From NCBI GenBank assembly GCA_016929595.1, contig JAFGIN010000122.1:55907-119906 (forward strand): a stretch of DNA of 64,000 nt. The letters are read 5' to 3'. Shown here one piece after another: positions 19,608 through 41,088 of the stretch (position 1 is its first letter; the number at the start of each line of letters is the position of its first letter). The position numbers were made by a program, and so were the translations under genes. This DNA comes from Chitinispirillaceae bacterium. GTDB taxonomy: Bacteria; Fibrobacterota; Chitinivibrionia; Chitinivibrionales; Chitinispirillaceae. The notes below the pieces were generated by a model. That model did not search any database, was not told the origin of the DNA, and saw nothing but the letters and a program-made list of their open reading frames with translations.

Positions 19608-22334
19608 TTACTTAACAACAGAGATCATCTGTTCACATCTTTCACCTGCACCATCAAATCTGACAACGTAAGCACCTGTACTGAGATTTGATGGGAGCGA
19701 AATAGTTGTCGACCTTATCGCATCCTGTTTTGACAATTTCGTACGAAACATTACTCTTCCACCCAGGTCTGTTACCATGAAAATGCCAGCAGCGCTTCTT
19801 TGTAAAACTATCTGCTGCTGTTTTGCAAAATACTGAATGCCGGCATTTTTGACTAAGTTGATTGCGCTGAAATTGCTTTGATCACTATCAAAATTAATGG
19901 CATTTGGTACAGGTCCATTCTTGATTAATTCTTCAATATTCTTCTCTTCAATCGTTTCCCATTTCAAGCGTTTATCAAGCAACTTCATATACTGAGTTGA
20001 ATCTGCAGCTTTCATGTAATCGGTATAGAAACCCGAATGGGGGCAGCACAGATCGATCCAGCATGCAATAATCTCTTTCTCTTTTTTTGTAAGTTTAACA
20101 TCATTATGTTTGGCATTAATAACTTTTGTCATTAAAGGGCTCTTTGATGAACCAAAAGCATAGGCTGACTGCTGTTCAGACATGGAGAAAATAGATAAAC
20201 AATTGATATATGTTCCTGAACCAAAAGACGCTGCTTTTTCGGTCAGATTAACATAAGATCTTGTCCAGTACCGTTTGGAATCTTTGTAATCTGCATCAGA
20301 GAGGTCTGCACCCCATATAAGATCACCCCGCAGGTCCAGCCCTGACTCGTGACCAGCCTTATGACAAGTTATACAATGCTGATCCAGAATGGGCTGTATC
20401 ATATCTCCATATTTAAAGTGCCGGCCCTCGATACCTAGAGGTTTATCAAGTTCTTTTGGTTCCCCTGCTAATGCTACCTGCCCAGGGTTTGGCGATTCGG
20501 TCTTTGGTTCATGACAGCCAACGCAGGGAAATTGCTCACCCGGCATAAGCGTTGACCAGCTTCGCATCGTTGCAATACAGTATCCATTGGAATCGAGTAC
20601 CTGAAAATAGACAGGTGTGAGAGCAGGAACTTTAAAAGCTGCTGAACCATCATCATAAATTTTCGCTTCACCCAGAACAGTTTTCGATTCCCATGATGCA
20701 CCAAATTTTGCAACAGGGCAGGATACAAATCCGGATTGTCCACCAGTCTGCCCTATCGTTGCACCCTGAACACGGTAATCGATCTTTACAACGCGAAGTC
20801 TTTTCGCAGTACCTTTGGCAACTGTACCGGATCTGGTTTTCAACCCTGCACCCACGTATACATTCTGCATCGTGAATATTGCATCATTCTTTGAATAATC
20901 TACTGATGATGCAAGTCTTGGAGGTATTTTGGCCCGTGCTTTTAACAAAACCGGCTGACTTACCGACTGATTATCCCAGGCAAGAAGTTCTCTATTTCCA
21001 TCGACATCCATAAAATACAGTTTGTAAAGTTTTTCTTTTTCAGTCTTACGCCATGAAACAAGAAATTCGTTCTCATTTAAAGGCAGTGGATTCTGAAACA
21101 GAAATTCAACATCTCCGGCAGACATATCATCTTTCTTGACAACAGCTTTTGTTGGACGTTTAGGAGCAATCATCTGAATTCCTGCAGTTCCGTTAGTAGC
21201 TTTAATCGGATCAATGATCATTAACTCACCCGAATAAGGCGCATGATGTCCCCCTGCAACCGCCATTAATTTTTCGGAATTCGGTATCGGCCGAGCATGA
21301 ATCATAGTCATGGGCCAGGTAGTCTGGTTTCCATAAAGTTCAGTCTGATGGGTGCCATCGGGATGCATATAGAACAGCCCCATACATGAAGTAAGAATTC
21401 GGTCATTATATTCCCATCGTGTATAAACAACTGTTCCATTATCCGTCACTACCGGATAAAACGTATGCACCTGATCATATCCTACCCGGCGAAGAAACTT
21501 CCCTTCTCCATTCATCAGATACATGTTTGATACAGGATTCCAGGCACAATCGACCATACCAAAACAACGGGTCGAACTGAACATGATATCACCATTTGGC
21601 AGATAACATGGTTCATAATCAGCTACAACGATATCTGTTGCCGGATCTGTAGTCAGTTGTTTTGGTTTGGATGGATTATCAACCTCCAGCTCATAAAGCT
21701 TATAACCCTTACCTTTTTTACCCGAGATAGCAAATACTACTTTTTTCCCATCAAAAGAAACACAGGGATCTCTGGGAACACCGTCACTCTTTTCAAAAAG
21801 ATAATCGTGTTTTGAATAGTAATTTGTCATTTTAAGATCACAAAGAGCACCACCATTTTGCCAGTTGTCATCAAGAGTTGGCATCCCGATCGTATTTGAG
21901 CTGACGTTTTCATGATATCCTACCAGGAAACCACCGAAATTGTGATGCTTGGCAAATAGGATACGCCCCAGATCAGCTTCATGTTTTTGCATTTTTGAAA
22001 CACGCCGCCAGTGGCATGCCAGCAGATACAGTTTTTCTCCGGAAAGGCTGCCTTTTTCAGCTTCATATTTTGCTTTATAATCAGCCGGCAGTTCTCCAAC
22101 AATTTTTTCGATTGCAGCATCGTAGCTGGAACCACTGACACCATCCTGATCCTTCCAGTCAGCAATAACTTCCGCCGGTATTGTTGATGGCATTTTTTCA
22201 TCAATAGCAGCCAGCAAACCCCGGCCAGGACCAAAAAGTGGACACACCATTAAAACAGCTGCAGCAACAATAAACAAGAACACCTTTTTGTTTAGACATT
22301 CCGCTTTTAAACTGCCCATACATAATTCATACAT
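19608..22334 (-). CDS. HzsA-related secreted di-haem protein with C-terminal sorting domain (paralog 1)
   Basis: 908 aa from the Met placed 5 nt after GGAAGGAGG, rather than an upstream Met at 22358. Signal peptide about 12-45. Residues about 150-560 form a WD/PD40-like propeller ('PCVSFDGKKVVFAISG', 'EPCYLPNGDIMFSSTRCFGMVDC', 'VVTDNGTVVYTRWEYNDR'). Two c-type haem motifs follow: CVGCH (about 602) and CITCH (about 655). A T9SS-type C-terminal domain (about 825-908) ends the protein. The family is named for the hydrazine synthase alpha subunit, but members occur far outside anammox bacteria and their reactions are mostly unknown. Paralogous to 38377-41088. Confidence 0.8.
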   Translation of the reverse strand: MYELCMGSLKAECLNKKVFLFIVAAAVLMVCPLFGPGRGLLAAIDEKMPSTIPAEVIADWKDQDGVSGSSYDAAIEKIVGELPADYKAKYEAEKGSLSGEKLYLLACHWRRVSKMQKHEADLGRILFAKHHNFGGFLVGYHENVSSNTIGMPTLDDNWQNGGALCDLKMTNYYSKHDYLFEKSDGVPRDPCVSFDGKKVVFAISGKKGKGYKLYELEVDNPSKPKQLTTDPATDIVVADYEPCYLPNGDIMFSSTRCFGMVDCAWNPVSNMYLMNGEGKFLRRVGYDQVHTFYPVVTDNGTVVYTRWEYNDRILTSCMGLFYMHPDGTHQTELYGNQTTWPMTMIHARPIPNSEKLMAVAGGHHAPYSGELMIIDPIKATNGTAGIQMIAPKRPTKAVVKKDDMSAGDVEFLFQNPLPLNENEFLVSWRKTEKEKLYKLYFMDVDGNRELLAWDNQSVSQPVLLKARAKIPPRLASSVDYSKNDAIFTMQNVYVGAGLKTRSGTVAKGTAKRLRVVKIDYRVQGATIGQTGGQSGFVSCPVAKFGASWESKTVLGEAKIYDDGSAAFKVPALTPVYFQVLDSNGYCIATMRSWSTLMPGEQFPCVGCHEPKTESPNPGQVALAGEPKELDKPLGIEGRHFKYGDMIQPILDQHCITCHKAGHESGLDLRGDLIWGADLSDADYKDSKRYWTRSYVNLTEKAASFGSGTYINCLSIFSMSEQQSAYAFGSSKSPLMTKVINAKHNDVKLTKKEKEIIACWIDLCCPHSGFYTDYMKAADSTQYMKLLDKRLKWETIEEKNIEELIKNGPVPNAINFDSDQSNFSAINLVKNAGIQYFAKQQQIVLQRSAAGIFMVTDLGGRVMFRTKLSKQDAIRSTTISLPSNLSTGAYVVRFDGAGERCEQMISVVK

Positions 22335-22673: not shown

Positions 22674-24584
22674 TTAGACATGTACAACCGGCAAAGTTTT
22701 GTTTTTCTTTCGTAAAAACATCCAGGTAACTGCTAAAAAGATGAACTCTATAATAAGATAGGTGACAAAAACCTCACCCCCGCCGGAAGCCTTTCCGTAC
22801 GAGTGAAGACCAATACCCATTAAATTTACACCAATCCAGGTACACATAACCATTACGACACCCACTACAGCACCTGTTGCGAGCCCATTATTTTTGATTA
22901 CCCCGGCAACACGTGCATGAAATACAATAAGTCCCCATAATATGATCAGCAGTGCTCCATTCTCTTTTGGATCCCATCCCCAGAATCTTCCCCATGCCTG
23001 ATCAGCCCACAAACCGCCTAAGACAGTTCCGGTAACGGTAAACAGTAGTCCGAAAGCAAACAGCCCATAAATCGCCCGAATACTCTGCAACAGTTGATCG
23101 TTTTCCTCTTTTCTTACAACTTTCTGTATCAGATAAAGATGTGCAACCAGCCCCGCTCCTACAAATCCTGCATAACCCAGTGAAATAGTAACAATATGCG
23201 TTGTCAGCCAGAATGATGAATCCAAAACTGCGATCAGCATTCCCATCGTATCGCCATCACGGGAATAACGGGAAGCAATGTGAAGGAAAATGAAACCTGT
23301 CACCGAAGATATCAGCACACCTATATTTCTCATCCTGATGATTTCAAGCACGATCCCGATAATTACCAGAACCCATGCAGTGAATACAAACGTCTCGAAT
23401 AGATTAGACACGGGAGGATGCCCCATAATCACAAATCGCATTATCAGCCCGATAGTCTGAAAAACCAGTCCGGCCAGTATCAATGTTAAACTTATATGAT
23501 ATGAATATCTCCACAAATATGATATCGCAAGCAGAGAAAACAACGCTGCTATTCCGTACAATACTTTGGAGAAGAAAAACGGGTTCAATCTATTATAGAG
23601 TATCTCGACACCCGGATCGTTTATTTTTGCCCTGTTGCTTTCGAATGTTTTAACAGTGTATTCCCGATACTGCGTAACAGCAGCATCAAAATCAACCTGG
23701 CTTTTCCTCAGATAGCATTCTCGTATGGTAAGCATCAGATTCATCAGTACATGCGGCATCGCATCTGTATGGTAACGGTTTAACAAACCCCAGAGACTGT
23801 ACCACTGCTCTCCCTCAAAAGAAAACTCCGGAATAATATGCGGTTGAGGATTTCCGATCATTCTTTCCATTTCCCGCATTCTTCTTAAAATGTTAATTGC
23901 TTCCTGCTCAGAAGCAGTCAGAGAATCGGCGCTTTTTGTTTGAATTTCCTCTATTTTTCGGGTAATTCTCTGAACTCTATAAAGTAACTGCAGATGCGAC
24001 ACTGGCCGAAGTACCGAAATTCCTAACATTGCTGATACTATTGAATCTGTAATCTGAAACTGTTCTTTAGGCTCGCCAAAACTGAATACCGAACGCAACG
24101 ACATATACTCTCTGACATTTCTGTTAACTCTCGCCATCTCTTTATCGAAAGCCGTCCACTCTCCCGGATCTTTTTTGACAATATCAGCAACCAATTTATC
24201 CATCTGACTAATGGATTTGTATAATTCTGAATAATTGTAGCGCCTTCTTATCCGAGGTGTAATACCTAAAGCATCAGGAATTTCAGGATTATTTATAATG
24301 AAAATCAGATCATCTTCTGCATTTTGAGGCTCAAGCAGTACCCTGCACATCCACTTGAGTGCAGACTCTCCTTTGACGGTCTGTTTACCGGAAAATTGTA
24401 CAAGTTTATTACGGGCGTACGTGTCCATGGGTTTCTTACGTCCGGATTCGAGCACCATTATCTTTCCAAACTGCTCTATTGAAAAGGTGTCCACTGAAGA
24501 ACTGAACGATTCTGTCCACGGAAGTAAGTGTGCCAGACAGGTGATAATCAGTATCCTGTAATTGTAGCTTTTTATATTTTTCAT
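22674..24584 (-). CDS. ccsA: CcsA-like cytochrome c maturation protein (System II)
   Basis: About 636 aa from the Met of 'MKNIKSYNY'; an alternative Met lies at 24620, and neither has a strong ribosome site. After an N-terminal signal/anchor segment comes an extracytoplasmic domain of about 320 residues, then at least eight membrane helices (about 355-630). The haem-binding WWD-type motif is visible as 'WADQAWGRFWGWDPKENGALLIILWG' (about 515-545), with conserved His in the flanking helices. CcsA (CcsB/ResC) exports haem and, with ResB/Ccs1, ligates it to CXXCH motifs. It follows the ResB-like gene by about 50 nt, so the two are co-expressed. Confidence 0.88.
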   Translation of the reverse strand: MKNIKSYNYRILIITCLAHLLPWTESFSSSVDTFSIEQFGKIMVLESGRKKPMDTYARNKLVQFSGKQTVKGESALKWMCRVLLEPQNAEDDLIFIINNPEIPDALGITPRIRRRYNYSELYKSISQMDKLVADIVKKDPGEWTAFDKEMARVNRNVREYMSLRSVFSFGEPKEQFQITDSIVSAMLGISVLRPVSHLQLLYRVQRITRKIEEIQTKSADSLTASEQEAINILRRMREMERMIGNPQPHIIPEFSFEGEQWYSLWGLLNRYHTDAMPHVLMNLMLTIRECYLRKSQVDFDAAVTQYREYTVKTFESNRAKINDPGVEILYNRLNPFFFSKVLYGIAALFSLLAISYLWRYSYHISLTLILAGLVFQTIGLIMRFVIMGHPPVSNLFETFVFTAWVLVIIGIVLEIIRMRNIGVLISSVTGFIFLHIASRYSRDGDTMGMLIAVLDSSFWLTTHIVTISLGYAGFVGAGLVAHLYLIQKVVRKEENDQLLQSIRAIYGLFAFGLLFTVTGTVLGGLWADQAWGRFWGWDPKENGALLIILWGLIVFHARVAGVIKNNGLATGAVVGVVMVMCTWIGVNLMGIGLHSYGKASGGGEVFVTYLIIEFIFLAVTWMFLRKKNKTLPVVHV

Positions 24585-24631
24585 ATGATAAATTCTTTTT
24601 GGAATCCGGTTCACTATCATTCGAATCTGGT

Positions 24632-25747
24632 TTATTTTTTATCTGAGTTGTTGTTTTTCAGTCTTATTACACTCCCTGCAAATTTCCCTGTGAAAGTTAT
24701 AAACAAACCGACTATTATTATAAGCCCTGAAATATAAGGAACAAATCTGAATGGATTATCAACTACAAATAACGTCGTCGCATTAAAACTGTTCTGAGTC
24801 ATAAATCCATTTTGATAAAACGTCAGGGATTTGTACCTGAACGGCCGGTTCATCGTTATTACAACATCCCTGTTAATCCCATCGCCCCTTACCGTTAAAT
24901 GACTCTCATAGCTTTTAGCATCTGTAGTACCCGGATGATTAATATTTACAAACCTGTTCAACGAAATTTCAAAGGGCAGCCTTATTTCGTGTGGCTTCAG
25001 CATAAAATACAAGGTATCATCTGCCATTGTGAACAGAACAGGATCAATTTTTCCACCATACAGTAACAATCTGTTTTCAGAGTTTTCTATGTTATTTTTA
25101 CTGATAACAACAGCTTCAATACCTGGAAAATTTCCAGCCTGATCAGCTGATATTTTCTGGGGTTGTAAAGAATCAATTGACGGTGCAGTACAATTCTGAT
25201 ACAATTTTTTAAACGCCAGAGAAATTGATGTATTCGGGAATGTTATTTTAGTGTCGTTTTTTAATTTATTAAAATGAACTGTATCTGAAACGAAATAGCC
25301 ATGATTGGCACTATTATGTTGTTTTTTAAGTACGATTAATTCCCACAAACTGAAATCACGTGAAAATGTAGTCTTCTGTCGTTCGTATATTGTCAACACT
25401 GATTCTTTTATGTAGATTGAAGCTAAGGCTGTACCGGCAAACAGCACAATAATTCCAATATGCATCAGAAGGACGCCCGACTTTTTAAATGAAAGAGAAA
25501 ATGATTTCAAACCATTGAGAATGAGATTTAAACTCAAAATAATAGCAATAGTTTTCATACCCGGGAAAAGAATAAACCCGAAGAGAAACAACCCCCAGGA
25601 TGAAAAAAATCTATCCTGTGCTGCCAGTAAACCATTATCAATCTGGTAAACAGTTCCGCCGGCAACAAGTATAAAAGTTATTATCAGACAAATGATGGTA
25701 AGTTTGATTGAACCTGACAACCTGATACAATTTTGAATAAAGCGCAT
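24632..25747 (-). CDS. resB: ResB/Ccs1-like cytochrome c maturation protein (System II)
   Basis: About 371 aa from the ATG 6 nt after TTGGAG (an in-frame TTG at 25759 would add four residues). Membrane helices at about 15-35, 42-65 and 85-105, an extracytoplasmic domain (about 110-330, 'LTIYERQKTTFSRDFSLWEL', 'RPFRYKSLTFYQNGFM'), and a last helix at about 335-358. This four-helix layout matches ResB/Ccs1, which holds apocytochrome and haem for ligation by CcsA. The adjacent ccsA-like gene supports this. The pair would serve the c-type cytochromes encoded on either side. Confidence 0.85.
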   Translation of the reverse strand: MRFIQNCIRLSGSIKLTIICLIITFILVAGGTVYQIDNGLLAAQDRFFSSWGLFLFGFILFPGMKTIAIILSLNLILNGLKSFSLSFKKSGVLLMHIGIIVLFAGTALASIYIKESVLTIYERQKTTFSRDFSLWELIVLKKQHNSANHGYFVSDTVHFNKLKNDTKITFPNTSISLAFKKLYQNCTAPSIDSLQPQKISADQAGNFPGIEAVVISKNNIENSENRLLLYGGKIDPVLFTMADDTLYFMLKPHEIRLPFEISLNRFVNINHPGTTDAKSYESHLTVRGDGINRDVVITMNRPFRYKSLTFYQNGFMTQNSFNATTLFVVDNPFRFVPYISGLIIIVGLFITFTGKFAGSVIRLKNNNSDKK

Positions 25748-25885
25748 CAAAAACTCCAAGAAATAGCTTTTTGTGGCCAGGCAGAAAAAGTATTCTAAAG
25801 TCCACTCAGGAACTCAAAACCACGATTATAACCTTCCCAAATAGAATAACATTATTGTTATTCACCTTTCTCTATCTATAAAAAC

Positions 25886-25937: not shown

Positions 25938-27320
25938 TTAGAATGCGTAGGAAACTCGTGTCATCCAATACCAGTCGGTACTTCTCTGACAAAGCTCAGT
26001 ATACCTATAACTTGTTGGAGGACCGAGCATGTAGGGTGCACGTATATGATGGTCGCTTGCAATTTGTCCGCTGATTCGAAATTTCCCAAACTTTCTTGAA
26101 GCATAAACAGACCATTTGAAATCGTCATTAGTAATTGCGCCAGGCTTTCCATCGGGCCACTGGTCATCTTTACTCAGATTGTAATACGTTTTTCCCGGTA
26201 TATATGGCAGAGGTGAACGCTGCTTCCATACCCGTTCTGCAGTATTTGTATATGGTGATGGATTATGCTCGATTTCAATAGCAAGAACATCAAGCAGTTT
26301 GAATGTAGGAAAATTAAAACCTGCCATTACAGGCATTCTCTCGAGCCTGTTTTCATACCATACCGGATAGTTTTTAAATCCAAGAATTGCTGATTCAAAA
26401 TATAATTTCAAATCTTCTTTACCTAATATACCATCACCTCCCCCAAAAATCACTTTAGGATCTATAGTAAATCTTCCCATTAGTTTAGTGCCTCTAAATG
26501 TAAACTTCGTTGTATCACCGGTATTTGTATCTGGAAGACAGACATCATACATTTTATCTCCTCCGTCAAAGATCTCTTTGTCATAAAACGGAGTAGACTT
26601 TCTTCTGTCAACTTCAATAAGGTGCGCATGCATTGCTCCAGCCGAAACCTCTAAGAACCGGGCTAAATTCAGAGAGAATATATACGATAATGAAAAACCA
26701 TGTATAGGGTAGTCTCTCATATCATTCGTAAAATAAAGGTCTGCTTTAAAATCACTTTTCTCACTGAAATATTTGGTGAACCTTCCATGCAGCCCGACAA
26801 GTTTCTCCTTATCTGCCAGTTCAAAACCTGAAACCAGATACGGATAATATGTACCACTTCTAAACAGGTATTCTCCAAGATTTCTTGATTGAGAATTGTA
26901 TTTTACCGGAAAATAACCAAATTCACCAAAGAACTCATGTGAGTCTGAAACATACTTCTTCTCAACCGCAGCATCGATGATATAAGGAACAAAACGTTTT
27001 CTGAGATACTCTGCAGAATTTGCATAGGAATGATCAGCCACCATAAACGCAGTTGTAAGCCCTATATGGAATCTTCCTTTAGTGTTTTCTCCCAATAAAA
27101 ATTCGGCCTTTATACCAGCATCAAAATCAGCCAGGGCCTCCCCGTCAAACTTATAATCTTTTACTGCGTTACCCTTAGCGCTTTCTTCGTGAGACTTTCT
27201 GATACTTCCAAATGTCAAATACCCCCAACTTGACAATTTCACCTTCTCCGAACATTGTTCATCTGCAAAGCAGATAGCAGATAATGCCAGACTGCACAGT
27301 AACAACTTACAAACTTTCAT
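25938..27320 (-). CDS. Putative outer-membrane beta-barrel protein in the cytochrome region
   Basis: 460 aa. Signal peptide (about 1-19, cleaving at CFA-DE) followed by alternating short beta-strands rich in Tyr, Phe and Lys, ending in an aromatic residue ('WMTRVSYAF'). These features fit an outer-membrane barrel. I recognise no family. It lies 43 nt after the beta-propeller cytochrome gene and ends with its own terminator, so it is the last gene of an operon with 27364-30107. A porin or cytochrome conduit role is possible but is inference. Confidence 0.65.
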   Translation of the reverse strand: MKVCKLLLCSLALSAICFADEQCSEKVKLSSWGYLTFGSIRKSHEESAKGNAVKDYKFDGEALADFDAGIKAEFLLGENTKGRFHIGLTTAFMVADHSYANSAEYLRKRFVPYIIDAAVEKKYVSDSHEFFGEFGYFPVKYNSQSRNLGEYLFRSGTYYPYLVSGFELADKEKLVGLHGRFTKYFSEKSDFKADLYFTNDMRDYPIHGFSLSYIFSLNLARFLEVSAGAMHAHLIEVDRRKSTPFYDKEIFDGGDKMYDVCLPDTNTGDTTKFTFRGTKLMGRFTIDPKVIFGGGDGILGKEDLKLYFESAILGFKNYPVWYENRLERMPVMAGFNFPTFKLLDVLAIEIEHNPSPYTNTAERVWKQRSPLPYIPGKTYYNLSKDDQWPDGKPGAITNDDFKWSVYASRKFGKFRISGQIASDHHIRAPYMLGPPTSYRYTELCQRSTDWYWMTRVSYAF

Positions 27321-27363: not shown

Positions 27364-29265
27364 TTAAAGTGACAATGAGTACTCCATAAGATCCCTGAAT
27401 TCATCATCTGTTAAACTTGTTTTACAATTAGAATGAAGTGAATTCTTGAGCAATGTTTCATAATCAGTTGTCGTTCCAATGTGATCCCATGGTCCTGTGC
27501 GCCATGATTCAATCACTGTCGGTGTATCAAAAGCAGGTGAACCATCCCACTGATCTTTAACTATCGACTGTTCAAGTTCAAGATTAGTAAACAACGGCGC
27601 GGGATGACATTTTTTGCAATCTGTTTTGTCACCATAATAAATGACTCTTCCTTTTTTGGCAGATTCACTTAAACGTCCTTTTACAAGAAAAGGGCTTGGT
27701 AATGGTTTGAGTCTATTAAAAAATGCTTCTATGGGAGTCGCTACGGAGTCAATAGCTTCCATACCTAACTCCTGGATAATTCCATACTCGATTGACTCTC
27801 TAACACTATTGCGTTTGGAAGCCCAGTTCATAGGTGGTGTATATGAAGCGAGTAACATTGTTTTGGCATTTTTCTGCATTGTCACGCCTGCTGCAAGCAT
27901 CCAGTCCAGTGCATCAGGACGGGTAAAAGGATGACACGAGTGACACGATTGCCATGCTCCCTGACAGTGATACTCATCACCGTTGTAAAAGTGGTATTCC
28001 CCTTTACGCTCAACGGTAAACGTTTGTTCGGGAGCGAGTGAAATAGTTGCAGATGATTTTGATGTTTGCAAATTGATTTCGAATTCTTCAATAGTATTAG
28101 TAAAATATCCTGCAGTATACGCTTTATTGTCAACAATTGCAATCACACGCGGGTTTAAGCCCTCAACTGGAACCCGTTTTCGTATTGTTGTCGGGTATAA
28201 AAGGTTAATCTTATGAGCGAGCCATTCTTTAACATCCGCTAATTCGATCATCTGATCTTTATCAATAATTGACAACATATTAGCTCCGGCATGAGCAATC
28301 ACAACATATTTCCCGTCTTCAGTACACTCAATACCCCAGGGATTTGACATTCCAATCTTGTCGTAGTGATCAACGGAAATGTCATTAATCAATTTTTTGT
28401 TCTCAATATCAACAATACACAAATTGTTTGTATGAACCCATCCGCCCGTTATCTGTGTGGCCGGAAGATTGAACATTGCGACCAGATGTGTAATGAGAGC
28501 ATATTTTCCATCAGGAGTAATTGTCATTCCAAAAACAGAGTGACTTCCCTGTGTCAGACCAAGGTGAACCGTTTTTGAATTATCATTTAAATCAACCAGA
28601 GAAATTTTACAATGCGCTTCAGCCGTATCAGTGGAATTACACAAGGGAAGTGAATTCGCTACAACAAGTATCTTTTCATCAGGAGTAACGCGCGCACTGT
28701 AGGGTTCCCGAACTACTTTAATTTTTTTGTCTTCTTTTCCTGAAGCAATATTAACAACGGAAATATCATCATTGTACTGGTTACATACATATAATCTCTC
28801 ACCATTGGGACTCAGAACCGGACATCGTGGGCTGTGACCGACTTTAATTTTTCTGTCGATTTTTCCTGAAGACTCATCAACTACACACACATACCCTTCA
28901 GGCCATCGCTCCGAAGTAATGGTTACATATAATTTAGATCCATCCTTTGAAACTGCAATACCCGATGGTTCATTTGGCAGTTGAATCCTTTTGACTACCG
29001 ATCTGTCTTTTATGTTTACTACTGCAATTGTCTTGGATGTCTGCTCTGCCACATACAGCTTTGTCTTATCAGGTGATGGCACAATATCTGTTGGCGAAAG
29101 ATATTTCGGTTTTGCAGGAGTTGGAAGGTCCTTGTTAAGAGCGAGTGTTTCAAATATAACCCCTGGTGACAGCAACGATTTAATGTTGTCCTGGGACAAA
29201 GCCAGGGCACAAAACGATACTATCGCGGCAAGCGCCATATGCATGTTTTTATTTACTGTTTTCAT
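27364..29265 (-). CDS. Secreted beta-propeller protein with di-haem cytochrome c peroxidase-like domain
   Basis: 633 aa. Signal peptide about 1-24. Residues about 50-390 form a YVTN/YncE-type seven-bladed propeller ('DKTKLYVAEQTSKTIAVVNI', 'DGSKLYVTITSERWPEGYVCVVD', 'NGERLYVCNQYNDDISVVNI'). Two c-type haem motifs follow: CHSCH (about 437) and CKKCH (about 547), spaced as in CCP/MauG-like di-haem domains. The partner CXXCH spacing and 'PALFTNLELEQSI'-type segment support a peroxidase/MauG-like fold. Its start overlaps the stop of the upstream sorting-domain gene (TAATG). Haem loading would need the nearby CcsA/ResB pair. Confidence 0.8.
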   Translation of the reverse strand: MKTVNKNMHMALAAIVSFCALALSQDNIKSLLSPGVIFETLALNKDLPTPAKPKYLSPTDIVPSPDKTKLYVAEQTSKTIAVVNIKDRSVVKRIQLPNEPSGIAVSKDGSKLYVTITSERWPEGYVCVVDESSGKIDRKIKVGHSPRCPVLSPNGERLYVCNQYNDDISVVNIASGKEDKKIKVVREPYSARVTPDEKILVVANSLPLCNSTDTAEAHCKISLVDLNDNSKTVHLGLTQGSHSVFGMTITPDGKYALITHLVAMFNLPATQITGGWVHTNNLCIVDIENKKLINDISVDHYDKIGMSNPWGIECTEDGKYVVIAHAGANMLSIIDKDQMIELADVKEWLAHKINLLYPTTIRKRVPVEGLNPRVIAIVDNKAYTAGYFTNTIEEFEINLQTSKSSATISLAPEQTFTVERKGEYHFYNGDEYHCQGAWQSCHSCHPFTRPDALDWMLAAGVTMQKNAKTMLLASYTPPMNWASKRNSVRESIEYGIIQELGMEAIDSVATPIEAFFNRLKPLPSPFLVKGRLSESAKKGRVIYYGDKTDCKKCHPAPLFTNLELEQSIVKDQWDGSPAFDTPTVIESWRTGPWDHIGTTTDYETLLKNSLHSNCKTSLTDDEFRDLMEYSLSL

Positions 29266-30107
29266 TAGAAACCCCCTTTAATACCCTGGATGAGAACTTT
29301 CTCACTTAACACCTTTTTGCCATTAACGGCAAGACTTAAAAGATAAACACCATTGGCGACCTCGCCATTGGCAACCCTTACCACCTCTTTACTGCTACCC
29401 GCAGAGATATCTTTGCTGAAAAGTTTCGCTACGTTACGTCCTGAGAGCGAATAGATGTTACAACTTACATGTGCAGATTCCTGAAGTCTGAGTTTGAGCT
29501 CAAAACAGTTACGTCCTTTAGAATGTAATACTGCAGGATTATCATTTTTCAGAACAGGCTTTAAACGTCCTACCCCGGTTGAACCTAATTTGACATAATA
29601 TTGCAATGTACCGCTATTATCAGTCACGTTGATCCGGTTATAATCTCCAGATCCATTTTTTTCATAATTTATCTTATTAAAGACATTTCCATTCTGAGAA
29701 ACCTCATAGCTATCCCCGGACTCTTTAAAATCCACCTTTCCACCTAACTCGTCAATGGCTTGTTGCGGAGTTTTACAATACCGATCCTTCACAGACATTG
29801 AACTGTTACCCCCATCATAGCTGAATGTTGTTACATATGAAGTATCCTGATTGAAGTTTAAAGATACCGTTTTCTCAGCTTTTCCATCTTTTTTCGAAAG
29901 AAAAACAGTCCTTACATAGGTTGAATCACTCATAAACACTTCATATGAGTTACCATCTTCAGCGAAGGTAATAAACATCAGATGATTATCTGATGCATCA
30001 AAAAAATCAGCACGCTTAACTTCTCCTGCACTGACCAGACTAAAGAAGGAAAACAGTATACCGAATACAATTTTCCTTTTTCTGCAAGTATTGATTAGTA
30101 TTGACAT
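29265..30107 (-). CDS. Secreted protein with type IX-like C-terminal sorting domain
   Basis: 280 aa. Signal peptide about 1-27. The middle (about 30-190) is beta-rich and unrecognised ('YVRTVFLSKKDGKAEKTVSLNF'). The last about 80 residues match a T9SS type A-like domain: 'HVSCNIYSLSGRNVAKLFSKDISAGSSKEVVRVANGEVANGVYLLSLAVNGKKVLSEKVLI'. Such domains direct export and cell-surface attachment when a type IX system is present. It is the first gene of the operon that includes the di-haem propeller protein. Its role is unknown. Confidence 0.7.
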   Translation of the reverse strand: MSILINTCRKRKIVFGILFSFFSLVSAGEVKRADFFDASDNHLMFITFAEDGNSYEVFMSDSTYVRTVFLSKKDGKAEKTVSLNFNQDTSYVTTFSYDGGNSSMSVKDRYCKTPQQAIDELGGKVDFKESGDSYEVSQNGNVFNKINYEKNGSGDYNRINVTDNSGTLQYYVKLGSTGVGRLKPVLKNDNPAVLHSKGRNCFELKLRLQESAHVSCNIYSLSGRNVAKLFSKDISAGSSKEVVRVANGEVANGVYLLSLAVNGKKVLSEKVLIQGIKGGF

Positions 30108-30179: not shown

Positions 30180-31361
30180 TTACCTGAAAACTGGAAATTG
30201 ATTTTGATCTGCCATAATACCTACTCCTTCCATTTCTACTAACCACCCTGGCCTGCAAACCGGCCCCTCTACAACTATGATAGGAACGCTTTCCGGAATT
30301 CGCTCATTAAGAATACTCTCAATAAGAGGATAGCACTTTGGATCTCTCATATATAATATCAGATACTGCATATCTGATATCAGGGCTCCCTGAGAAGCAA
30401 GAAGAGCCTCAACATTATCGATTGTCCTTATTAACTGGTTACAGACATCGCCAACATAAAGGATGTTTCCCGCAGGATCGATGCTGGCGGTACCTGAGAT
30501 ATGAAGATGCGACCTGTCACCGAAACGAATGCGCGTACCACGTTCAAATGTCACCCCATACATATGCGTACTGCGAAGATTCTCAGGTGCTTCAATCCGG
30601 ACAAGCTGCTCTTCACCGATATTTCCCATCGACAATCCATCCATACTGACCAGACAACTGGTATCAACGGTGAGACCCTGGATCCCGGTTGATGCGATGT
30701 ACCGGGTTTCATGAGTCAGTCCGATTGCTTCAAACAGCTCACGTCTTGCCTTTACCATTCCGGCATAATTGTTATCGACATCGCGCATATACAACCAGGT
30801 TCTGACTGTATTGTTTCGAACAGTCATAGTATACTTTTCCAGTACATCACGGGTTTTATCAAAAATTCTCTGCGTTTGAATCTCAGAATCAGGGGCAGAA
30901 TTATCGGTGAAACAGGTTGTCCAGACCATTGTATAATTTTTCCCGGTCGAACAAACTTCCTGACATTTGTAATCATCGGGTTTCCTGAATGTTTTAAGCG
31001 CAAATGATCCATCAGTGCTTTTAATATGATGCGCTATAATTCCCAATGAACCACCATTTACGGGCGGCTGCCCGACAAGTGAAATTGCCCCGTTGGTCAC
31101 TGATTTATATAATTCAGACTCAACAAGTTTCGGATAATCGTTGGCAATATCACTCAAATAAAAACGAATAAACTGCAATGTGGACCTGTTGAGTGCGTTT
31201 TCCTGCAAGGAGGCACTGTACAACTCAGCGATCTCCTGAAGAGCATCATTAAAAGAAATTCCAGCTGAGGATGTAGCAACAATGTAGTGCTCATCTACCC
31301 CTGAAGGAGAAGAAAATTTGCTGCTTTTGATACGTTGCGCTCTTTGTAACGAGACTTGCAT
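30180..31361 (-). CDS. Tandem Rid-domain (RidA/YjgF-like) protein
   Basis: 393 aa, three times the length of single-domain RidA. Residues about 160-265 and 275-390 each look like an RidA/YjgF unit. The C-terminal one has 'GTASIDPAGNILYVGDVCNQLIRTIDNVEALLASQGALISDMQYLILYMRDP' and 'NERIPESVPIIVVEGPVCRPGWLVEMEGVG', the usual family end with the enamine/imine-site Arg ('CRPGWLVEMEG'). The N-terminal about 150 residues may be a further divergent unit. It has no signal peptide. It may deaminate reactive imines or be related to chorismatase-like Rid proteins; this is not resolvable here. The gene has its own promoter region. Confidence 0.75.
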   Translation of the reverse strand: MQVSLQRAQRIKSSKFSSPSGVDEHYIVATSSAGISFNDALQEIAELYSASLQENALNRSTLQFIRFYLSDIANDYPKLVESELYKSVTNGAISLVGQPPVNGGSLGIIAHHIKSTDGSFALKTFRKPDDYKCQEVCSTGKNYTMVWTTCFTDNSAPDSEIQTQRIFDKTRDVLEKYTMTVRNNTVRTWLYMRDVDNNYAGMVKARRELFEAIGLTHETRYIASTGIQGLTVDTSCLVSMDGLSMGNIGEEQLVRIEAPENLRSTHMYGVTFERGTRIRFGDRSHLHISGTASIDPAGNILYVGDVCNQLIRTIDNVEALLASQGALISDMQYLILYMRDPKCYPLIESILNERIPESVPIIVVEGPVCRPGWLVEMEGVGIMADQNQFPVFR

Positions 31362-33221: not shown

Positions 33222-34604
33222 TCATGGTATCATACTTTGTATTCCGCAATACAGCCCATACCGTGTTGGAAAATCTTTGGCGACATCCTCATTGAAATAG
33301 GTATAATATCCACCAAGAAGTATCTGGAACTGCCTTTTTATTGCATATGCAAACTCAAGAGAACTTACCATCTTCATAAATGACACCTCCATTACATGCT
33401 TCTCGTAATTTTCCTGTGCTTCCCATGAGAATTTTACTGCAGGGTCAATACTGAACGATTTTGTCGCCTGAACCCGACTTTTAACATATGCAGATTGTAT
33501 TGGAAAAAGGCCACCCAGAGATGTGCAATACCCCGGTTCTACATAGGATAAATTTCTCCATGCTTTCCGTAATGATACTTCGTACCGACGCTTAAGGAGA
33601 TTGTTTCCCGTTTCAAGAAAAGCGGTACCCTTGAGGTATAAACCACGACTGATAGTAAAAACATCCCGCATATAGAGATAAAAAAGCAATCTTGTTGCCA
33701 TAGGATAACTTCTTTTCAAATATTCTTCATACATGTCTTCATCACTTGCCCGCTGATATTGCTCCAACCCCCCGTACCAGCTGAGCTGGTTGTCAGCCGG
33801 TAGTCTGGCAGTTCCATTTAACTCAACCTGATATCGGTAGAGATTCAAAAACCTGCTGTCGCTGAAATTTTGTTTCATTCTGGTATTACATTGAATGTAA
33901 ACATCATCAAACATACGAAACGAGAAAGCATAGTCAGACCATAGATCGGTGCTGAAAAACATATTAGAATCCACAGGAACTAATTCGAATTCTGAATTGT
34001 AATCTAAGAGTCTTTTTCTGTAATTCAAAAAAATCAGATTAAGATCTGCTGTTACTGTTGCCCTGCCCAGAGGTAACGACCAGTAAGCGTTAGCATACGT
34101 TCTGGCTTTTCTACACATGTCACTGAAAGAAAATTCATGCGTTGAAGTATAGGTTGTATCCATATAGTCGTGATAAAACGGGTCTATAGCCAGAGGCTTA
34201 AAATAAAGAATATTCCTTATAATCAACTGAGCATCTCCCAGCCCCGTCCAGCGTAATCCTGCGGAAGCAATATTTGATGACGGCAGAAGTTTTTCTTTTA
34301 ATGGATAGTTTTGCATTGCCACTTCGTCATCTTTATCAGAGTACAACGACTTCACACCATCGAATCTCTCTTCCAGCATTAGTTGCAGTTTGGGAGAAAG
34401 AGCATATAAACCGTTATAAATTACATGGCCTGTCAACCCTGCTGCGTAAATGCCGCTATCAGGTTTTATTTCTCCGCTTACAACTCCGGCTCTAATCTCC
34501 AGTTGTGTTGATGCTGTAGCAGCTTCGAAGAAAACCACCGAGAAACAAATGACCGTTTTAATAATCCTGCTGAGACCATCTGAAATCTTAATGAATTGCA
34601 TCAT
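33222..34604 (-). CDS. Putative outer-membrane beta-barrel protein linked to exported ferredoxins
   Basis: 460 aa. A signal peptide (about 1-32, '…VVFFEAATAS') precedes a chain of alternating beta-strands with many Tyr/Trp/Arg ('YQCNTRMKQNFSDSRFLNLYRYQVELNGTARL'). This is barrel-like, without a recognised family. Its first codons overlap the end of the lipoprotein ferredoxin gene by 17 nt, so the three genes 35084→33222 form one operon. A scaffold or conduit for the Fe-S proteins is possible but unproven. Confidence 0.65.
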   Translation of the reverse strand: MMQFIKISDGLSRIIKTVICFSVVFFEAATASTQLEIRAGVVSGEIKPDSGIYAAGLTGHVIYNGLYALSPKLQLMLEERFDGVKSLYSDKDDEVAMQNYPLKEKLLPSSNIASAGLRWTGLGDAQLIIRNILYFKPLAIDPFYHDYMDTTYTSTHEFSFSDMCRKARTYANAYWSLPLGRATVTADLNLIFLNYRKRLLDYNSEFELVPVDSNMFFSTDLWSDYAFSFRMFDDVYIQCNTRMKQNFSDSRFLNLYRYQVELNGTARLPADNQLSWYGGLEQYQRASDEDMYEEYLKRSYPMATRLLFYLYMRDVFTISRGLYLKGTAFLETGNNLLKRRYEVSLRKAWRNLSYVEPGYCTSLGGLFPIQSAYVKSRVQATKSFSIDPAVKFSWEAQENYEKHVMEVSFMKMVSSLEFAYAIKRQFQILLGGYYTYFNEDVAKDFPTRYGLYCGIQSMIP

Positions 34605-34845
34605 TTGGACACACCTTTACACATTTACCACATTGTTTGCATTTTGATGGGTCTATTACGGCTTTGCCCCCTATTAAAATGATTGCATCAGCTTCACAAA
34701 CCTTGACACACTCACCACACCCCATGCAAGATGACTCATCTACAGTTAAAAAGGCATTTTTCCCCGGTAGGTTCTGACATCCTATCAACACAGTAAATAG
34801 TATTATAAAAGTTCCTGCTATCAGTAATTTAGATTGCATTTTCAT
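34588..34845 (-). CDS. Lipoprotein with 2x[4Fe-4S] ferredoxin motifs
   Basis: 85 aa from the Met of 'MKMQSKLL', chosen because it overlaps the upstream stop (ATGA) and gives a proper lipoprotein signal; an in-frame Met 17 codons earlier lacks this. The lipobox is 'VLIGC' (Cys about 21). Two CxxCxxCxxxC clusters follow: 'CMGCGECVKVC' and 'CKQCGKCVKVC'. It would be a small membrane-anchored, extracytoplasmic electron carrier. Ferredoxins of this type are normally cytosolic or Tat-exported subunits, so a Sec/Lol lipoprotein form is unusual. Confidence 0.8.
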   Translation of the reverse strand: MKMQSKLLIAGTFIILFTVLIGCQNLPGKNAFLTVDESSCMGCGECVKVCEADAIILIGGKAVIDPSKCKQCGKCVKVCPNDAIH

Positions 34846-35084
34846 TGTGGAGCTCCGTACGAACAGGTCATTATACACAATTTGCAGCCGACACACTTAT
34901 CAATGTCTATTACTGCTTTTCCACGAACTATTGTTATTGCCTTAACAGGACATGCCCGGACACAATCACCACAGCCGACACACTTCGCACTGTTTATTAC
35001 AGCTTTTTCATTTGCCCCGGCAGCAACCAGTACTGTCGCTGCTATCACGAATAGTATACTCAAGGTACACAACGTTTTTTTCAT
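34842..35084 (-). CDS. Exported 2x[4Fe-4S] ferredoxin-like protein
   Basis: 80 aa. A Sec-type signal peptide (about 1-24, '…TVLVAAGANE', no twin-Arg) precedes two CxxCxxCxxxC motifs: 'CVGCGDCVRAC' and 'CVGCKLCIMTC'. First gene of the operon with the lipoprotein ferredoxin and the barrel protein. It is a predicted periplasmic electron carrier, provided the clusters are assembled after export. AGGGGGGATTGTG upstream supplies the ribosome site. Confidence 0.8.
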   Translation of the reverse strand: MKKTLCTLSILFVIAATVLVAAGANEKAVINSAKCVGCGDCVRACPVKAITIVRGKAVIDIDKCVGCKLCIMTCSYGAPQ

Positions 35085-36802: not shown

Positions 36803-36804
36803 AT

Positions 36805-37791
36805 ATGAATAAATCCGGATTATTTTCAGTAGCATTCATTTTTTTGTCAATACACCTGCTCGTCATCAACACATATTCCCAGGGGTGTTGCGGTATTGGG
36901 GGTTCTCTGGTTTCGGGAGGGCATCCAGTACTCAACAAGCACACGTTTTTAGTAAATACATCTGGTAACTATGCGGTCGCTGATAATCCGTCTCGACGTC
37001 GTCGGGGCAGCACTGGAATTCTATTGGCATATGGTTTAATCGACAGGCTATCTCTGTCTATAAAAACCTCGTATATCTGGGCGTCATACACAGAAAACAT
37101 GCCACCCTGGATATCAGCGGATGGCAACGATACGCTATATCTGAAAGATCAGGAAGAAAACAGTGGATTCGGTGATGGTTATGCAGCCCTTCAATTTGTA
37201 ATTATCAGGTTAACGCCAATCAACAAACAAGAACTCATTGCAGGATTAGACCTGGGAATTCCCTGGGGGCCTGATTCAAAAATGATCAACGGTGTAACAT
37301 TACAAGATAATGTACAAACCGGGACCGGCGGGTTTTCATTAAATGGCTATGTAACCTACCTGAAAGCATTTCCCAGAATTTATTACTCGATTACCACTAC
37401 AATCGCCGGACGACTCAATTTTAAAACAAGGCGGGGTAAAGATCCTGGTGATGAATTCTCTGTGCTGTTGACATCACTGTTAGGACCGTTGTTTAATACC
37501 AGAGGATCTGTTACGTTCAACTACTCCAGGAACGGTAAGGACTATTCTGATGAATTTACTAACGTTATGACCATCTCACCAAAGACATCCGGCCAGCGAT
37601 TAAGTTTCATTCCAGCACTTGAGTATTCGTTCACGTCAAATTTTAAATTTTTAATTAACGCTGACCTACCTCTGTGGCGTGACAAATATGCCACCCTCAA
37701 TGATAATGACAAAGCTTTCAGCGCACAGATCTACTGGTTTATTCCCATAACGAAAGATAACCCAGAACCGATCAAGTCCATCTCCTTTTAA
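36805..37791 (+). CDS. Putative outer-membrane beta-barrel protein
   Basis: 328 aa. Signal peptide about 1-25 (…INTYS). The mature N-terminus has an adjacent Cys pair ('QGCCGIGGSLVSGG'), then about 12 barrel-like strands with glycine and aromatic alternation ('LLAYGLIDRLSLSIKTSYIW', 'QELIAGLDLGIPWGPD', 'RIYYSITTTIAGRLNFKT') and an amphipathic end ('AQIYWFIPI'). Resembles generic outer-membrane channel proteins; substrate unknown. It is co-transcribed with the upstream Ig-like lipoprotein. The Cys pair could bind metal (speculation). Confidence 0.65.
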   Translation: MNKSGLFSVAFIFLSIHLLVINTYSQGCCGIGGSLVSGGHPVLNKHTFLVNTSGNYAVADNPSRRRRGSTGILLAYGLIDRLSLSIKTSYIWASYTENMPPWISADGNDTLYLKDQEENSGFGDGYAALQFVIIRLTPINKQELIAGLDLGIPWGPDSKMINGVTLQDNVQTGTGGFSLNGYVTYLKAFPRIYYSITTTIAGRLNFKTRRGKDPGDEFSVLLTSLLGPLFNTRGSVTFNYSRNGKDYSDEFTNVMTISPKTSGQRLSFIPALEYSFTSNFKFLINADLPLWRDKYATLNDNDKAFSAQIYWFIPITKDNPEPIKSISF

Positions 37792-38346: not shown

Positions 38347-38376
38347 ATGGATATCGAAAGGTCATTACAAAACTAA

Positions 38377-41088
38377 CTATTTAGTAAATGTAACCTTTGC
38401 CTGCTGGATTCCACTGGAACCTTCAAATTTAGCGAGGTAACAACCAGTGCTTAAAGATGCAGGTAGTGAAATCGATACAGTCCCACCGCTGATCTGATTT
38501 GATATTTTCATACGAGACACTACATTTCCCATAAGATCAACTAAAAGGAAATTACCCTGACCAGGGTTATTTAAAACCAGCGTACGTTGTTTTGGAATAT
38601 ACCCTATCGTTAACTGTTTAACAGAGTTAACTACGGGTTTAATGGCATTATTATTATCAGGTATAACTGCAGTGGCTAAATCTTTAAGACCTTCCTTTTC
38701 AATTTTCTGCCATTGAGTTCTTTTCGCTACGAAACCCATATACTTGGTTGAATCTGAAGACGAACGATAATAACTCTCGTATTTTCCGGAGTGAGGAGCA
38801 CACAAATCAATCCAACATGCAATAATTCGTTTTTCTTTATCAGAAATTTCTGTTTTGAACTTATCAGCATGACTGGTACCATTAAGGACTTTTGTCATTA
38901 TATTGCTTTTGCATGCGCCAAAAGAATAAGGTGCTTTCTGTTCCGGTGTTGAAAATATGGTATTGATATTTACGGCATTATTGCTTGTCCTGGAGCCAAT
39001 ACCTTTGAGCAATGACTTGTATGATGTTGCCCATTTTTTTGAGGCATCGCTAGCTGAAAGGCTGCCGGTTAAATCAAACCCTGACGCATGATTCCCTTTA
39101 TGACAGCTTGTACAATGTTTATCAAGTATCGGCTGAACCATCTTTGGATAATCAAACGGTTTATCTTCTATACCCAGCGGCTTTTCAAGCGGCTTGGGAT
39201 CTCCTGCTTTTGGAATCTGTCCTGTTCCTGGCGTAGCCTCAAGTGTGTTTTCATGACACCCAAAACAGGGAAATTTTTCACCTGGCATGAGCGTTGACCA
39301 GCTGCGCATTGTTGCGATACAATACCCCATGGAATCAAGAACCTGGAAATAGACCGGCGCTCTGGCTGGAACTTTAAATGATGCAGAACCATCTTCATAT
39401 ATTGGTGTTTCGCCTAAAACTTCCTTTGCTTCCCATGAACAACCATATTGCGATATCGGGCAGGATATAGCAGGTTGAAAAGCACCTGAAGGCACAGATC
39501 CGATCTGCATACCAATAGCACCTGTTTGAACCCGGTAATGGAGTTTAATAACACGAAGCGACTTCGCTTTACCTTTTTCCACACCAACCATACCTGGACC
39601 ATAATAAACATTCTGCAGTGTAAACTCACCCAAGCTGTCACTATAATTTGCGTTCGTTGCTATCTTTGGAGGCACCTTACGCGTTTTAACTATGACTGGC
39701 TGACTTATCGACTGATCACCCCATGCAAGAAGTTCTCTGCTTCCGGTAGTATCCATGAGATAGAGGTTAAATTTGTTACCATTGGACATAACATTTCCCT
39801 CATTTTTGCGCCATGAAACAAGAATACTATTATCGTCAAGTCCATACGGAGTCTGAAAAGTGAAATAAATACCACCATAGCCGATATCACTCTTATTTGC
39901 ATCAGGTTTCGTTGGACGCACCGGGCAGATCATCTTGATAGCCGCTTTATCATTAGGATTTTCACCAGCCATACGATCGATGATCAACAATTCACCCTGA
40001 TAAGGGCCATGATGCCCACCAGCAATCGCAACCACTTTTTCCGAATTCTGGATAGGTCGTGCGTGTATTATTGTCATAGGAAAACTGATCTGATTTCCAA
40101 ACCATTCACGCTGATGACAACCATCAGGATTCATCGTAAATATGCCCATACTGTTGGTCAGATCACGATCATTATATTCCCAGCGTGTATACATGACTTC
40201 ACCTAGATCCGTCACAACAGGATAAAATGTATTTACCTGGTCGAATCCAACCTGACGGATATGTTTTCCGTCGCCGCTCATAAGAAACATGTTCGTTACA
40301 GGATGCGTTGCGCAGTCAACAAAACCAAAACAACGTGTAGAAGTAAATGCGATATCACCATTTGGCAGATAACATGGTTCAAAATCGGCAACGACCTTAC
40401 CAACACCAGGATCTTTAGTAAGCTGCTTTATATTTGCCGGGTTATCGATTTCCATTTCATAAATTTTATAGCCGGTCCCCTTACCACCATCGGACATCGC
40501 AAAAAGAACTTTTTTACCATCAAAAGATATGCAGGGATCCCGAACAACACGATCTTTTTTCAAAATTTCTTTTAACGTAGGGTAATATGTTTTCATTTCC
40601 AGTAAACACATGGATCCTTTGGATGCCCAGTTAAAATCGCTATTACCTGATTCAGTGTTATCATGATAGCCGACCACCATACCACCAAAATTATGGTGCT
40701 TCATACACATGACATTTTCGAGATCTGATTCGTGAGGCTTCATTTTTGAAACACGTTTTAAATGGTGAGCAAAAAGATATAGCTTTTCTCCGGAATAGCT
40801 ACCTTTTCCAGCTTCATATTTTTCTTTATATTCGTCTGGCAACTTGCCGACAATTTTAGTAATTGCAGCATCATAGCTGGAGCCGCTTACTTTATCCTGA
40901 TCCTTCCAGTCATCAACGACTTCTTTAGGAAATGATGCAGGCATGGCATCATCGATTGCAGCTTGCGCATTTTGAAGAGGATTGACCGCAGGGGCCGTTA
41001 ACATCAGCAGGGTTAGAATGACAAAGCATAACCCGATTCTCACTTCGGCGTTACATTTTGCATGTAACAGGCTCTTAAAGGTACTCAT
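38377..41088 (-). CDS. HzsA-related secreted di-haem protein with C-terminal sorting domain (paralog 2)
   Basis: 903 aa. Signal peptide about 15-43. The same architecture as the 19608-22334 protein: N-terminal block ('DWKDQDKVSGSSYDAAITKIVGKLP'), PD40-like propeller (about 150-560), haem motifs CFGCH (about 605) and CTSCH (about 657), and a type IX-like C-terminal domain (about 825-903, 'VLNNPGQGNFLLVDLMGNVVSRMKI'). Similarity to paralog 1 is obvious along the full length, so they arose by duplication, but haem-proximal and N-terminal segments differ. Well expressed-looking: AAAGGAAG ribosome site and a strong terminator. Reaction unknown; not evidence for anammox. Confidence 0.8.
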   Translation of the reverse strand: MSTFKSLLHAKCNAEVRIGLCFVILTLLMLTAPAVNPLQNAQAAIDDAMPASFPKEVVDDWKDQDKVSGSSYDAAITKIVGKLPDEYKEKYEAGKGSYSGEKLYLFAHHLKRVSKMKPHESDLENVMCMKHHNFGGMVVGYHDNTESGNSDFNWASKGSMCLLEMKTYYPTLKEILKKDRVVRDPCISFDGKKVLFAMSDGGKGTGYKIYEMEIDNPANIKQLTKDPGVGKVVADFEPCYLPNGDIAFTSTRCFGFVDCATHPVTNMFLMSGDGKHIRQVGFDQVNTFYPVVTDLGEVMYTRWEYNDRDLTNSMGIFTMNPDGCHQREWFGNQISFPMTIIHARPIQNSEKVVAIAGGHHGPYQGELLIIDRMAGENPNDKAAIKMICPVRPTKPDANKSDIGYGGIYFTFQTPYGLDDNSILVSWRKNEGNVMSNGNKFNLYLMDTTGSRELLAWGDQSISQPVIVKTRKVPPKIATNANYSDSLGEFTLQNVYYGPGMVGVEKGKAKSLRVIKLHYRVQTGAIGMQIGSVPSGAFQPAISCPISQYGCSWEAKEVLGETPIYEDGSASFKVPARAPVYFQVLDSMGYCIATMRSWSTLMPGEKFPCFGCHENTLEATPGTGQIPKAGDPKPLEKPLGIEDKPFDYPKMVQPILDKHCTSCHKGNHASGFDLTGSLSASDASKKWATSYKSLLKGIGSRTSNNAVNINTIFSTPEQKAPYSFGACKSNIMTKVLNGTSHADKFKTEISDKEKRIIACWIDLCAPHSGKYESYYRSSSDSTKYMGFVAKRTQWQKIEKEGLKDLATAVIPDNNNAIKPVVNSVKQLTIGYIPKQRTLVLNNPGQGNFLLVDLMGNVVSRMKISNQISGGTVSISLPASLSTGCYLAKFEGSSGIQQAKVTFTK

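Follow-up and report, generated by a model that had tools for sequence, protein, structure and literature searches.

Homologues of the hydrazine synthase subunits in a conserved operon of Fibrobacterota and their predicted role as a redox complex of the cell surface

A stretch of 64,000 nucleotides from a Chitinispirillaceae bacterium of the phylum Fibrobacterota (assembly GCA_016929595.1, contig JAFGIN010000122.1, positions 55,907 to 119,906), here called the window, carries genes related to those of hydrazine synthase (HZS), the key enzyme of anammox. To our knowledge, hydrazine synthase was formerly held to lack relatives. The genes between positions 19608 and 31361, together with a second alpha gene, encode homologues of the HZS alpha subunit and of fused beta and gamma subunits (beta-gamma), in matching domain order. 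The operon is conserved in relatives, the hydrazine-specific residues are lost, and genes for carbohydrate-active enzymes (CAZymes) are more frequent next to alpha and beta-gamma genes than in two controls. We favour, with a confidence a little better than even, the reading that alpha and beta-gamma make up a predicted four-haem redox complex of the cell surface that acts on plant cell-wall material and does not synthesize hydrazine.

The operon runs on the minus strand from 31361 to 19608, with intergenic gaps of at most 315 bases, in a host genome of 6.6 Mb (95% complete). It begins with the gene for a chorismatase-like enzyme of the Rid superfamily (30180..31361; PF01042 39.2 bits) and continues with that for a predicted secreted protein of 280 amino acids (aa) bearing a weak tail of the type IX secretion system (T9SS) type (29265..30107; PF18962 17.7 bits, below the cut-off of 27), which overlaps by one base the start of the beta-gamma gene (27364..29265). 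The latter joins an HzsB-like beta-propeller to an HzsC-like di-haem domain, with CXXCH motifs at 27931-27945 and 27604-27618. Next come a barrel-like protein of 460 aa, a predicted outer-membrane barrel that is conserved beside beta-gamma (25938..27320), and a System II cytochrome c maturation pair, made of a ResB-like protein (24632..25759; PF05140 45.7 bits) and a CcsA/CcsB-type haem ligation protein (22674..24620; PF01578 88.5 bits), both above their Pfam cut-offs; the CcsB-like protein scores 141.4 bits with TIGR03144, below the cut-off of 187.6. The run ends with copy 1 of alpha, an HzsA-like di-haem protein (19608..22358; CXXCH at 20511-20525 and 20361-20375). Copy 2 lies apart on the same strand (38377..41088; CXXCH at 39253-39267 and 39100-39114). 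The two alpha-like proteins and beta-gamma together hold all six CXXCH motifs found in window frames longer than 100 aa.

Both alpha proteins match the middle domain of HZS alpha, PF18582, far above its cut-off of 26.6 bits (101.5 bits for copy 1 and 90.8 for copy 2), and the sole PDB relative of both by sequence (E 0.01) is hydrazine synthase alpha, 5c2v_A. Structure models with predicted local distance difference test scores (pLDDT) of 87.0 and 87.7 have HzsB and HzsA as their top PDB matches, with 17-26% identity to HZS in the structure alignments. Among solved proteins, the beta part is closest to HzsB by fold and the gamma part to HzsC by sequence profile, the profile of the gamma-like domain scoring 97 bits with HzsC versus 59.7 bits with cytochrome c peroxidases (CCPs). 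The profile comparison was used here because the 50 listed structural matches of the beta-gamma model are all filled by the propeller, include no CCP/MauG chain and are thus uninformative on the di-haem domain. The curated equivalog cut-offs for HZS are all missed (alpha 70-77 bits versus 800, beta 117 versus 560, gamma 19.9 versus 625). Alpha and beta-gamma presumably assemble as the HZS subunits do. The first-pass annotation of the window had already recognized two HzsA-related di-haem genes, the System II genes and a beta-propeller/di-haem gene; all are present, and the last can now be identified further as an HzsB-HzsC-like fusion.

The residues on which hydrazine chemistry depends have not been retained. 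According to two studies, Tyr591 of HZS alpha ligates the active haem four residues after the CXXCH histidine, while His587 binds zinc (PMC12607021), and in HZS gamma Cys165 provides a third haem bond (PMC12758564), with Asp168 near the iron (PMC12607021). In the window family, the Tyr591 position is a tyrosine in none of 69 alignment rows and in none of the 110 proteins, out of 120, whose motif is readable. Profile alignments to 5c2v_C place Cys165 and Asp168 next to gaps and to columns without conservation, and the alignment has no conserved cysteine at beta-gamma residues 495-505. The gamma His144 position is a tryptophan in every one of the 61 rows from proteins close to the window's. As for the distal His772 of alpha-II, 51 of 69 rows have a histidine just ahead of a W[IL]D motif, the profile alignment being off by one column. 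Since the key HZS residues are not conserved, hydrazine synthesis is unlikely, and the caution that the first reading had voiced on this point was warranted.

Among 40 stretches from genomes of the phylum, the operon recurs in the order alpha, 280-aa gene, beta-gamma, barrel-like gene, optionally the chorismatase-like gene, ResB and CcsB. All seven genes were labelled in three loci (L079, L080 and L085) and six of the seven in two others (L084 and L088). Neighbours were counted within 12 kb of 22 beta-gamma genes, the window's included, on stretches several of which stop at contig ends. The barrel-like gene was found near 17 of them, the 280-aa gene near 16, alpha near 13 (11 on the same strand) and the chorismatase-like gene near nine; L110, L121 and L178 likewise have this last gene in the cluster. 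In a survey of 167 genomes of the phylum, alpha occurs in 21, beta-gamma in 15 and both in 14 (Fisher p 1.9e-14, kinship not corrected). The host genome itself has three contigs that carry alpha and beta-gamma together. The distances of paired alpha and beta-gamma proteins are correlated over 27 loci (Mantel r 0.57, with 0 of 2000 permutations, again not corrected for kinship). The only genome with beta-gamma and no alpha match holds a weak beta-gamma match with internal stops (G038:C542:8176-9081). The module had first been drawn around two HzsA-like proteins and ferredoxins, and these limits have to be revised: it consists of alpha, fused beta-gamma, the secreted-type 280-aa protein, one barrel-like protein, the chorismatase-like enzyme and ResB/CcsB. 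The genes at 30180-31361 and 29265-30107, not previously singled out, are members of the same conserved operon.

The supposed tie between the maturation genes and the haem proteins that they serve is well supported in relatives. CcsB lies within 12 kb of seven and ResB of six of the 22 beta-gamma genes. Seven Clostridia genomes (L149, L151, L154, L156, L167, L186 and L187; several titles name gut samples) each contain a single CcsB gene and a single match to PF18582, and in six of them CcsB is in the cluster: in five it lies immediately upstream of beta-gamma, and in L154 it comes about 8 kb farther along, after alpha and a cohesin gene. The seventh genome (G170) has it on another contig. ResB is beside CcsB in L187, and 3 of 76 neighbour ORFs (open reading frames) from other phyla match ResB. 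The host genome has two CcsB genes, one of them the window's. The local ResB/CcsB pair presumably attaches the four haems of alpha and beta-gamma.

Alpha and beta-gamma also occur as a single chain. Among the matches listed, nine proteins of 1,382-1,433 aa (P0105-P0113) combine PF18582, a propeller and CCP_MauG, with four CXXCH motifs. Locus L109, from a Spirochaetes metagenome-assembled genome (MAG), encodes P0105, and a Sedimentisphaerales MAG (L110) has a similar 1,423-aa four-haem gene, 76-78% identical in both parts. These fusions support, from sequence, the single complex that co-location alone had suggested. A scan of named genomes covered 303 stretches and 269 relatives, of which 79 loci were examined; beta-gamma is present in 21 of these, 17 of them outside Fibrobacterota, a share that is biased upward, the query having contained the beta-gamma part. 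Alpha and beta-gamma stand together in the isolates Parabacteroides gordonii DSM 23371 and P. goldsteinii (L165 and L176), as well as in Clostridia MAGs. The presence of the pair in cultured Parabacteroides strains makes its function directly testable. Two loci of uncultured bacteria contain alpha-like genes in arrays, five in L164 and four in L169, with no beta-gamma on the stretch. P0157 unites a 280-aa-like region and beta-gamma in one chain of 922 aa, which may be a natural fusion or a stop lost in assembly. P0120 (NIR_SIR plus HZS_alpha), an apparent chimaera with internal deletions, was not used.

The means by which alpha would reach the surface differ between groups: a T9SS-type tail appears to serve here, a dockerin in Clostridia and a lipoprotein-like start in Parabacteroides. 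The surface-sorting domains that had been attributed to the window's HzsA-like proteins hold in part, copy 2 having a sub-threshold match to TIGR04183 (17.5 bits, cut-off 23) and copy 1 none listed; the only window protein above that NCBIfam cut-off is the DUF2271 protein (27.3 bits).

The genes that surround alpha and beta-gamma point to carbohydrates. Neighbours were sampled as 82 of the 83 eligible ORFs beside beta-gamma and 88 of 114 beside lone alpha genes, and compared with two controls. The first comprised 104 of 104 ORFs (two rows consisting only of X), largely from small contigs; the second, a matched control, took every second ORF (95 of 189) from contigs with alpha or beta-gamma, away from those genes. 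Since each tally is confined to its 25 commonest families, out of 128-180, most singletons stay unseen. Beside beta-gamma were found CBM6 (4), GCE_fung (3), GH10 (3), GH43 (3), CBM4_9 (3) and GH88 (2), and beside lone alpha GH10 (3), CBM6 (3), CBM4_9 (2), GH30 (2), GH8 (2), arabinofuranosidase (2) and GH2 (2); we take these GH, CBM and GCE_fung names to stand for enzyme roles on xylan and glucuronoyl esters. Among the 25 commonest families, the first control had no GH or CBM family repeated and the matched control no GH family repeated.

Individual loci convey the same picture. Upstream of the operon lie GH30, SASA and GH141-type enzymes with CBMs (L079), GH95 and GH43-CBM6 (L075), or two GCE_fung genes (L084). 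On contig C50 of the host genome a GH10 gene is located between alpha and beta-gamma, and a GH43 gene adjoins the set on C12. In another genome (G019), alpha and beta-gamma share the two contigs C341 and C323 with four of the five glucuronoyl esterases. In the gut Clostridia L154 (goat rectum) and L156 (sheep colon), alpha bears dockerin as well as F5/8 type C domains and adjoins a cohesin gene; among 120 proteins listed, of 2,150, we counted by eye 17 with dockerin and 50 with F5/8 type C domains. The P. gordonii cluster has xylulokinase and DeoC genes, over cut-offs, just upstream. Finally, 76 hand-picked ORFs from 17 loci outside Fibrobacterota, for which there was no control set, include GH2 (4), GH43 (2) and SusD (2). 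The mere presence of a glucuronoyl esterase in a genome was tried as a marker and set aside, as it does not set genomes with alpha apart from the others (98 of 167 have one).

A possible course of action can be sketched, at low confidence. Peroxide or another small oxidant might be activated at the first haem of the bCcP/MauG-like gamma domain, and the haem site of alpha might then use the resulting oxidising equivalent, or a small intermediate, on polysaccharide- or lignin-linked groups, a modification that would let xylanases and esterases work. The chorismatase-like enzyme could provide an aromatic compound as redox mediator or quencher, for which the barrel-like protein could be the passage. 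We hold this specific chemistry to be much less probable than the carbohydrate-linked redox role itself. If redox attack on plant fibre is indeed the function, the family would be a likely raw material from which the key enzyme of anammox evolved, and it would add an oxidoreductase class for anaerobic biomass degradation. A bolder version, which we regard as tentative and rather doubtful, is that Fibrobacterota, Bacteroidota, gut Clostridia and others possess an HZS-related complex with its own private maturation pair, which they expose through T9SS, lipidation or the cellulosome and which attacks xylan or lignin-carbohydrate linkages, as the anaerobe's counterpart of lytic polysaccharide monooxygenases (LPMOs) and fungal redox enzymes.

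Several observations weigh against a role in plant cell-wall oxidation. The activity, the substrate and the oxidant of the complex are all predictions from sequence. We take these organisms to be anaerobes, in which an oxidant would have to be available for any step driven by peroxide. The tryptophan at the bCcP-like position is replaced in rows from Parabacteroides, Spirochaetes, Sedimentisphaerales, Verrucomicrobia and Victivallis and in one Fibrobacterota row (L088); not being common to all phyla, it leaves room for a peroxidase mechanism that is not shared. CAZyme genes are common in the phylum, a glucuronoyl esterase being present in 98 of the 167 genomes, and none of the host's seven glucuronoyl esterase genes is on a contig with alpha or beta-gamma. 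The controls are not devoid of such families either: the first has two GDSL-lipase ORFs, and the matched one CBM6 (2), alpha-amylase (1) and melibiase (1). Among 19 window proteins scanned with Pfam, a SASA esterase at a distance of 5.6 kb from the cluster is the only enzyme for carbohydrates, apart from an SLT/LysM protein of the peptidoglycan type. The operon itself is not invariable. Three of the 22 beta-gamma genes lack both the 280-aa and the barrel-like gene within 12 kb; those of L095 and L096 have no module gene at all, and that of L070 has alpha only, on the opposite strand. Lastly, CcsB is outside the cluster in the three Parabacteroides genomes searched, so that the pairing is not universal.

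Of the competing explanations, the one that survives best, improbable as we judge it, is a surface system for peroxide scavenging or stress, in which the gamma-like domain would be an ordinary di-haem cytochrome c peroxidase and the proximity of CAZymes incidental. The CCP/MauG homology and the bCcP-type tryptophan throughout the 61-row set are what would be expected of it. Yet the domain is closer to HzsC than to the CCPs, it is joined to a propeller and often adjoined by alpha (13 of 22), and an alpha fused to dockerin and F5/8 type C domains would be odd for detoxification.

An enzyme of nitrogen metabolism, whether a surface or periplasmic reductase of nitric oxide, nitrite or hydroxylamine or a cryptic hydrazine synthase on the HZS plan, seems to us quite improbable. 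Homologues of all three HZS subunits are present in the right domain order, with HzsB and HzsC as the best solved matches of beta (by fold) and gamma (by sequence profile). Against this stand the absence of tyrosine at the Tyr591 position in both sets and the lack of conserved equivalents in the Cys165 and Asp168 segment. Moreover, a search of the host genome gave no NrfA match, with a positive E. coli control, and no match to the HAO/HDH family (PF13447), for which no control genome matched either. Carbohydrate families are among the commonest neighbours, whereas no nitrogen-cycle family is among the 25 commonest in the beta-gamma and lone-alpha tallies.

Extracellular electron transfer or respiration, with alpha and beta-gamma passing electrons to solids, humics or partner cells through the barrel as a conduit, would agree with the predicted surface haems, the barrel-like protein and the exported ferredoxins of the window, and is similarly improbable in our estimation, given that each protein has two haems, that window frames longer than 100 aa encode no multi-haem protein (two CXXCH per frame at most), that the 102-aa ferredoxin is absent from the cluster in 40 stretches of relatives, and that the Clostridia pair with one CcsB per genome, in some cases with dockerin and F5/8 type C domains, does not point to a respiratory wire.

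The two exported 2x[4Fe-4S] ferredoxins and the DUF2271 protein of the first reading are also present. The ferredoxins are encoded on the minus strand, one of 102 aa at 34588-34896 and a shorter frame adjoining it at 34842-35084; the DUF2271 protein scores 33.5 bits against a cut-off of 27.3. The genes for three supposed outer-membrane barrels are likewise there (25938-27320, 33222-34604 and 36805-37791), all without a Pfam match, so that the barrels remain predictions; the family of the first has no PDB relative at E 0.1. When neighbourhoods were compared in Fibrobacterota, a check that had been proposed at the outset, the maturation genes and HzsA-like genes co-occurred. Four neighbours did not follow: the genes at 33222-34604 and 36805-37791, the DUF2271 gene and that of the 102-aa ferredoxin have no blastp match in the 40 relative stretches, in which ORFs below 80 aa were unlisted, and were rejected as parts of the module. 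The shorter ferredoxin was not among the queries. The SASA-type carbohydrate esterase gene lies at 12957-13997 on the plus strand (PF03629 130 bits), 5.6 kb from alpha copy 1. In P. gordonii (L165), a pair of small DUF6905 proteins at 5451-6313 may be an uncharacterised transporter pair; DUF6905-like ORFs were seen by eye in L158, L161, L176 and L178, upstream of a run of kinase, ADH, DeoC, alpha and beta-gamma. In these Parabacteroides-type loci, a propeller gene like Mal s 1/arylsulfotransferase follows beta-gamma (L165 14056-14937, with similar ORFs in L158, L161, L176 and L178).

Hagglund et al. (2025, PMC12758564) have reported homologues of alpha and beta-gamma that lie together and have lost key residues, to which they assign no function, from Planctomycetota, Desulfobacterota and a few other groups. 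The main text of that paper does not contain the words Fibrobacter, Chitinispirill, Spirochaet, Parabacteroides, dockerin or carbohydrate, and its available text has no single-chain alpha-beta-gamma fusion. The open-access literature searched had nothing that joins hydrazine synthase with dockerin, or with carbohydrate-active enzymes and xylan. As far as these searches go, the members in Fibrobacterota, Spirochaetes, Parabacteroides and Clostridia, the operon, the one-chain fusions, the private maturation and the link to plant polysaccharides are new.

Compared with HzsABC of anammox bacteria (5c2v), the window family has the same plan: propeller, middle domain and cytochrome domain in alpha, a propeller in beta, a di-haem domain in gamma, and two CXXCH motifs each in alpha and gamma. 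The fusion of beta and gamma is also found in Ca. Scalindua japonica, as described in PMC12758564. The window family differs from HzsABC in its predicted T9SS-type or dockerin display, in its operon with chorismatase-like, barrel-like and ResB/CcsB genes, in its carbohydrate context, and in not conserving equivalents of Tyr591, Cys165, Asp168 and His144. With the di-haem peroxidases of the bCcP/MauG type, the gamma-like domain shares the fold family and two haem motifs; it differs from them in that its scores with these enzymes are lower than with HzsC and in being joined to an HzsB-like propeller. Unlike porin-cytochrome electron conduits, the window has no multi-haem cytochrome (at most two CXXCH per frame longer than 100 aa). 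The chorismatase-like protein resembles, by profile, the FkbO/Hyg5 chorismatases and Rid proteins: across residues 165-381, the best structures for its family profile are 5ag3 (72.3 bits), which we take to be chorismatase Hyg5, and 4bps FkbO (63.5 bits). At 34.4 bits with TIGR04444, against a cut-off of 325, it is not a named chorismatase. Clades I-IV of Hagglund et al. (PMC12758564) share with the window family the co-location of alpha and fused beta-gamma (13 of 22 here), the loss of key residues and the tryptophan at the gamma His144 position; alpha is mostly upstream of beta-gamma in clades I-III, as it is here. Clade I differs in that its beta-gamma has eight extra N-terminal haems (PMC12758564), whereas all 120 beta-gamma proteins listed here have two CXXCH motifs.

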